Shown here piece by piece: positions 54,278-57,240 of a DNA stretch of 64,000 bases. Below the pieces are notes generated by a model, which was given only the letters and a program-made list of their open reading frames with translations, did not search any database and was not told the origin of the DNA. The position numbers and the translations under genes are program-made. Origin of the DNA: Actinomycetota bacterium (GTDB lineage: Bacteria > Actinomycetota > Actinomycetes > Propionibacteriales > Propionibacteriaceae); the NCBI GenBank assembly GCA_020161795.1, contig JAIUOR010000020.1, positions 1 through 64,000 of the forward strand. The letters are read 5' to 3'. Position 1 is the stretch's first letter. Each line of letters begins with the position of its first letter.

Positions 54278-54456
54278 GGCATACCTGGGACGGAATCGTC
54301 CGCCCCGCACCTCACAACTCAACAACGCCGCCGCAGATCGCCTTCGGTCCTCGGTAGTGGCCTTCGGGGGCAGCCACCTTCATGGGGCTGGCTCCCGCGG
54401 GCCTCGATCGAAGACCGGGACGGGTACTGGCAGGTGGCCTCACCGAAAGGAAACCC

Positions 54457-56684: not shown

Positions 56685-56710
56685 AAGCGCCGCCCCTCGG
56701 GGCGGCGCTT
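56685..56710 (+). terminator. Intrinsic terminator of pnp
   Basis: AAGCGCCGCCC (56685-56695) pairs with GGGCGGCGCTT (56700-56710) around CTCG, then TCGCG. 18 nt after the pnp stop. Strong stem, weak T tract. Confidence 0.75.
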
Positions 56711-56797: not shown

Positions 56798-56958
56798 CGC
56801 CGATCTGCCGGGGTTATGGGCTTCGACCAGCCAGGCGACAGCGTCGTTCGCCGATCTACCGGGGTTACCAGCCCATCCCACCGTCTGGTAACCCCAACAG
56901 AGCGGCGTTTGAACCGACGGCGCCCGTTTCGCCTGCTCATAACCCCGGCAGATCGGCG
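56798..56958 (+). repeat. Symmetric cluster of four 20-bp repeats (two direct, two inverted)
   Basis: Copies at 56798-56817 and 56849-56868 (plus) and at 56888-56907 and 56939-56958 (inverted). Consensus CGCCGATCTGCCGGGGTTAT. The outer pair is identical in 20 of 20; the second differs at two positions and the third at four. Start-to-start spacing is 51 bp in both halves, making a 161-bp near-palindrome. The centre, CCAG/CTGG with loop 56872-56884, could fold. No gene lies in 56711-57157; this cluster is what that stretch holds. Confidence 0.85.
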
Positions 56959-57157
56959 AATCGATGCGCTGGAGCCCGGGGGACCAGACCGGCCCCCGTC
57001 CGCCTTGCTGATCGCCGGTGACCGCTGACCCGGGGGAGTGCTGATCTAGGTTGGCCGTCGCGGTGGCATTGAGCCCGAGTCGGCGACGAAGGAGCACCTG
57101 GGCGACTCCGCGGTGATCGACCTCGACTCGAAGCCGGATTCAGCCCGAAACCAGGGG

Positions 57158-57240
57158 TGCCCGAGGGGGGAGTCGAACCCCCACGTCCTTTCGGACTGAC
57201 GATTTTGAGTCGCCCGCGTCTGCCATTCCGCCACTCGGGC
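57158..57240 (-). tRNA. tRNA-Leu (CAA)
   Basis: 83-nt class II tRNA on the minus strand. Acceptor GCCCGAG/CTCGGGC with discriminator A; D-arm GGCGGAATGGCAGACGC; anticodon stem GGCGA/TCGTC around loop CTCAAAA, giving anticodon CAA; variable arm GTCC-GAAA-GGAC; T-arm GGGGG-TTCGACT-CCCCC. CCA is not encoded (A is followed by CCCC). Reads UUG codons. Confidence 0.95.

Follow-up and report, generated by a model that had tools for sequence, protein, structure and literature searches.

The 161-bp element described here, found in a window of 64,000 nucleotides (the whole stretch of Propionibacteriaceae DNA that was analysed), is one of the orphans in a family of four-site DNA arrays. Judged from sequence comparison it is probably an orphan copy of the cognate DNA of a nuclease with AbiEi-like and DUF559 domains, and the findings point to an undescribed system in which a DNA-cutting enzyme would be accompanied by its own dispersed recognition arrays.

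The array contains two direct and then two inverted 20-bp sites whose starts are 51, 39 and 51 bp apart (Table 1), which bears out an earlier note's description of a near-palindrome of four repeats with an identical outer pair and the same 51-bp pitch in both halves. When identity is summed over the six possible pairs of sites (maximum 120) it scores 104, and it is not a chance arrangement because the second-best place in the window scores 68 and shuffled sequences 64–68. Site 3 is the least exact of the four. The bases beside successive copies, whose alternation that note also reported, are AAA and ATT in turn; they appear to belong to a site somewhat longer than 20 bp rather than to lie outside it. 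As had been stated, no gene lies inside the array, and the pnp terminator and a tRNA-Leu gene stand on its two sides. An ordinary Actino-pnp RNA leader (Rfam RF01688) is found 5' of pnp at 54343–54419 of the window.

Table 1. Parts of the array and its neighbours, in window positions
Feature	Position	Strand	Basis
Hairpin 3' of pnp, likely the pnp terminator (context, outside the array)	56685–56710	+	
Site 1, CGCCGATCTGCCGGGGTTAT	56798–56817	+	repeat analysis
Spacer 1, 31 bp; kept in length but not in sequence	56818–56848	.	copy comparison
Site 2, CGCCGATCTACCGGGGTTAC	56849–56868	+	repeat analysis
Central spacer, 19 bp; with sites 2 and 3 forms a 59-bp dyad	56869–56887	.	
Site 3, CGCCGCTCTGTTGGGGTTAC	56888–56907	-	
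Spacer 3, 31 bp	56908–56938	.	copy comparison
Site 4, CGCCGATCTGCCGGGGTTAT, same as site 1	56939–56958	-	repeat analysis
tRNA-Leu(CAA) (context, outside the array)	57156–57240	-	

A genome search for the 20-mer, which the note had proposed, finds it at eight intergenic places, each time in the four-site form; seven of these arrays are orphans and one stands behind an AbiEi-like/DUF559 nuclease gene. The congener G009 also has eight such arrays, G025 has six and G004 at least one of the same motif type, and in a scan of genome contigs the pattern occurs only in records of Propionicimonas sp. MAG25 and Actinobacteria bacterium HGW-Actinobacteria-2. From copy to copy, spacer sequence varies and spacer length hardly does. 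One array of the window genome (L097, C8, 6139–6176) has its site 4 tandemly duplicated, 18 bp apart, and is the only one seen with a fifth site.

The C-terminal part of the partner protein is a DUF559/MTES_1575 nuclease domain of the Vsr-like PD-(D/E)XK type (Pfam), and its N-terminus resembles the winged helix-turn-helix (wHTH) antitoxins of the AbiEi group (weak Pfam matches to AbiEi_4, E 2e-4, and AbiEi_3_N, below the cut-off; padloc AbiEi match, E 5e-12). Residues E224, E228, D259, E270, D272 and K276 are invariant in 22 nuclease proteins and are likely catalytic, an assignment that rests on the PD-(D/E)XK motif. An AlphaFold2 model of the nuclease, made from two sequences only, has a pLDDT of 43 and is too poor for use.

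A protein search of the genus and family gave about 68 close relatives of the nuclease that could be examined, in four genera, and an array of the same geometry adjoins about 64 of the 68 genes, usually 0–5 bp past the stop codon. The scored arrays at the 3' end of the gene or behind it number 59, and for 56 the start falls within -31 to +21 nt of the stop codon; in five further genes the array stands on the 5' side. Control open reading frame ends reach the threshold score in 5 of 700 cases. Within 250 bp upstream no second array stands at the other end of the genes of this clade, two partial upstream matches (L366, L370) being seen. The 51-39-51 geometry is absent from the distant-subfamily genes sampled across other genera. 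Each nuclease gene or lineage has its own array motif, giving about 57 gene-motif pairs of one fixed geometry, and a single genome can hold many nuclease paralogs, each with a motif of its own.

Dispersed arrays have the same motif as a nuclease gene of their genome. When 1.16 Mb of the single-contig genome G014 was scanned blind, three motif families rose above background and each belonged to a resident nuclease gene. In a blind scan of 336 kb of G035, a member of another genus, all six motifs found were likewise those of resident nuclease genes; neither scan gave a clear array without a matching resident gene. In G014 five arrays of one family all share a 40-bp centre. The orphans were also considered as scars of decayed nuclease genes, a reading that is ruled out because no nuclease remnant lies within 3 kb of any of 27 orphan arrays.

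Comparison of the same chromosomal places in different genomes shows how the motifs change. Arrays 5' of rplU in G014, G028 and G027 have the 51-39-51 geometry with unrelated motifs, as has an array 3' of pnp in G021. The rplU-side arrays each abut the stop codon of a DUF559 protein gene; five orthologous genes at this place have three unrelated motifs (CGCCGATCTGTTGGGGTTAT in G009, a CGCGG..GTTACCGAAT-type motif in G028 and G014, and TGCGCCCGCAGAGCCCGAAT in G027), and those from G009, G027 and G028 group together in a clade with support of 100/98. Array position and geometry thus persist between species and the motif changes. Among 22 genes, motif similarity follows protein similarity best in the N-terminal hundred columns (Mantel r 0.44, with 0 of 2000 shuffles as high) and most weakly in the C-terminal nuclease domain (r 0.21, 22 of 2000 shuffles); this correlation may partly reflect shared ancestry.

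In three pairs of orthologous arrays of G000 and G009, site positions 1–8 and 13–20 are 92% identical, whereas positions 9–12 are 44% and the spacers 47–56% identical; the sites have therefore been kept in place across the species split. Among the eight arrays of G009 identity is 91% for the sites and 33% for the spacer cores (28% when shuffled). The spacers drift to near randomness at fixed length and the site cores are conserved between species, and this conservation in place argues for binding by a protein. A pyrimidine-purine step at mid-site was considered as a general feature and fails in another motif lineage.

We suggest that the N-terminal wHTH domain binds each 20–23-bp site, with one nuclease per site and four copies forming a single complex on the array. 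The PD-(D/E)XK domain would act on the array DNA, and the array would by this means spread to new intergenic places; gene and array together would spread rarely. The arrays would then be dispersed non-autonomous partners of the nuclease that spread without the gene, as REPINs are to RAYTs.

Site conservation over species splits also fits a host function and counts against this explanation. The strongest rival gives the protein a role in the host, as a regulator or nucleoid protein; the arrays would be its immobile functional binding sites under host selection, and the nuclease domain would be defensive or vestigial. Site cores conserved at orthologous positions, the known role of AbiEi-type wHTH proteins as operator binders and the small number of arrays per genome (about 2–8 per motif) are in its favour. 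However, the genes that adjoin arrays have neither a function nor a promoter orientation evidently in common, the gene-side arrays are mostly found behind the gene and not at its promoter, and motif and orphans change together between species; the invariance of the likely catalytic residues and the many paralogs of one genome, each with its own motif, also speak against a regulator. We regard this role as possible, though on balance unlikely.

One locus may record movement: G011 has gene and array there, and in G007, G008, G015 and G025 the place is no more than a short intergenic gap. On the right the G011 insert ends with the final base of the array, and its left border lies about 100 bp before the gene. 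No transposition intermediate and no recent full-length array copies were found, and no transposition event has been caught because paralogous arrays have only their sites in common. Presence or absence at a locus, dispersed intergenic copies and the near-palindromic form would also suit an ordinary MITE, in which the arrays would be miniatures derived from a conventional transposon with two transposase sites per end. Such an origin is improbable, since the nuclease clade yielded no parent element bounded on each side by a half array and the partner gene matches no known transposase family in Pfam. Inverted sites are present as in MITEs, but target-site duplications at the array borders are not above control, and the internal sequence that MITE copies share is lacking, the spacer cores being about as similar as random sequence.

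Distant relatives of the nuclease have a gene-specific repeat on either side of the gene; at 13 of 15 loci the two flanks share a 14-of-16 match, which 16% of mismatched flank pairs also show. Inverted or direct flanking repeats were seen at the distant AbiEi-DUF559 genes L294, L414, L415, L418, L419, L420, L422, L180 and L187, in geometries other than 51-39-51. On sequence grounds these two-sided repeats look like the ends of a mobile unit. It seems rather probable to us that the close clade is a new class of partnership between AbiEi-wHTH/Vsr-like nucleases and their own array populations, with the motif free and the 51-39-51 spacing set by the shape of a tetramer, within a wider superfamily with two-sided repeats.

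Two side observations concern other repeats of this kind. Behind pnp in G014, G028 and G001 (L187, L180 and L190) there is another AbiEi-like gene, accompanied by CTTCGCTACC-type repeats that recur about every 21 bp, and the spot behind pnp seems to attract AbiEi-like elements. G008 has repeats of the form CCCTTCGACAAGCTCA (L166, near 1768), and the distant nuclease gene L422 is flanked by the related motif GCTTCGACCC; the common dispersed CCCTTCGACAAGCTCA repeat may have the same kind of nuclease partner.

The earlier note had offered four options, of which a protein-binding locus and a REP-type mobile repeat both come close and the other two, structured RNA and an attachment site, fall away. 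That the palindrome acts by folding on itself, as RNA or cruciform, is very improbable. The predicted hairpin is very stable (-99.5 kcal/mol, against -58.6 for shuffles), but it is so because the sites are inverted; spacers 1 and 3 are no more complementary to each other than swapped spacers (0.338 vs 0.325), and at the variable bases facing sites are no more alike than sites that do not face each other. With no Rfam family matched and no compensatory changes in the predicted stems, the structured RNA was rejected. A phage or island attachment site, suggested by the nearby tRNA-Leu gene that the note had called a landing site, has next to no probability and is refuted by the distribution of the arrays: the same array is also present elsewhere, at unrelated loci of several genomes, beside unrelated genes and with no flanking duplication above control, the tRNA is incidental, and viral contigs and phage records encode no relative of the nuclease (plasmids have two distant ones).

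The nuclease gene of the window genome lies on a contig other than that of the window (C15, about 176255–176905). It has lost residues 22–109 and one reading frame, the G009 copy being intact, and thus the window element is an orphan with an apparently broken master gene; this reading, and that of the G014 family I nuclease gene, which is also frameshifted, depend on assembly quality. The arrays of the window genome are looser at mid-site than those of G009, and the window array may by now be a relic that drifts, or remaining selection may still keep it as a site. Breaks near residues 84–141 are seen in C15:176255–176905 of the window genome, L125 (G014), C312 (G017) and C14 (G015); they could be due to chance decay, error in the metagenome-assembled genomes (MAGs), which several of the compared genomes are, or a shared weak point.

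Among known systems, the AbiE type IV toxin-antitoxins share the AbiEi-like N-terminal domain and inverted repeats of about 23 bp. AbiEi of S. agalactiae and Rv2827c of M. tuberculosis recognize inverted repeats of 23 bp with a domain of this kind, and the two Rv2827c repeats together cover 23+13+23 = 59 bp (PMC3985639, PMC7319586), as do sites 2 and 3 of the window array. The present system differs in that a nuclease domain follows the wHTH domain and the ten genes neighbouring the nuclease include no DUF1814 toxin gene, in the nested order of its sites, two direct then two inverted, and in that its arrays are mostly behind the gene and dispersed over the genome, whereas AbiE repeats are found only in the operon promoter. 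The Vsr-like PD-(D/E)XK domain, with its residues kept in the partner gene, is shared with Vsr-like DUF559 and homing endonucleases, of which Caulobacter VsrA is active in vivo (PMC12907096). However, the papers searched describe no dispersed cognate arrays for these enzymes, and each gene here has an intact array beside it instead of lying inside its target. The open-access papers searched gave no description of such arrays with DUF559 proteins.

The closest likeness in organization is to REPIN-RAYT, in which a single-copy enzyme gene stands beside its cognate repeat, non-autonomous repeats of the same motif are dispersed between genes, and several enzyme-repeat pairs with distinct motifs persist for long in one genome (PMC3116915, PMC8049555). 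The nuclease arrays too adjoin the enzyme gene and recur with the same motif at dispersed intergenic places, with several pairs of distinct motif per genome and long persistence. Nevertheless the nuclease-array pair is not a member of REPIN-RAYT, because its enzyme is a wHTH-PD-(D/E)XK nuclease and not a Y1/HUH (IS200-like) transposase, and its repeat is four non-palindromic 20-bp sites at 51-39-51 and not a pair of short hairpins (REPs); its arrays also number about ten per genome, where REPINs number dozens to hundreds, and have spacers without homology between copies. For the AbiEi-like/DUF559 proteins, a large and poorly understood nuclease family, each gene gains a concrete candidate DNA partner, so that its specificity becomes predictable and testable, and the gene-motif pairs of one geometry are a natural data set for a wHTH recognition code. 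If the proposed partnership is true, it would be a second, independent enzyme-plus-dispersed-repeat system beside REPIN-RAYT, so general theories of such partnerships would become testable.
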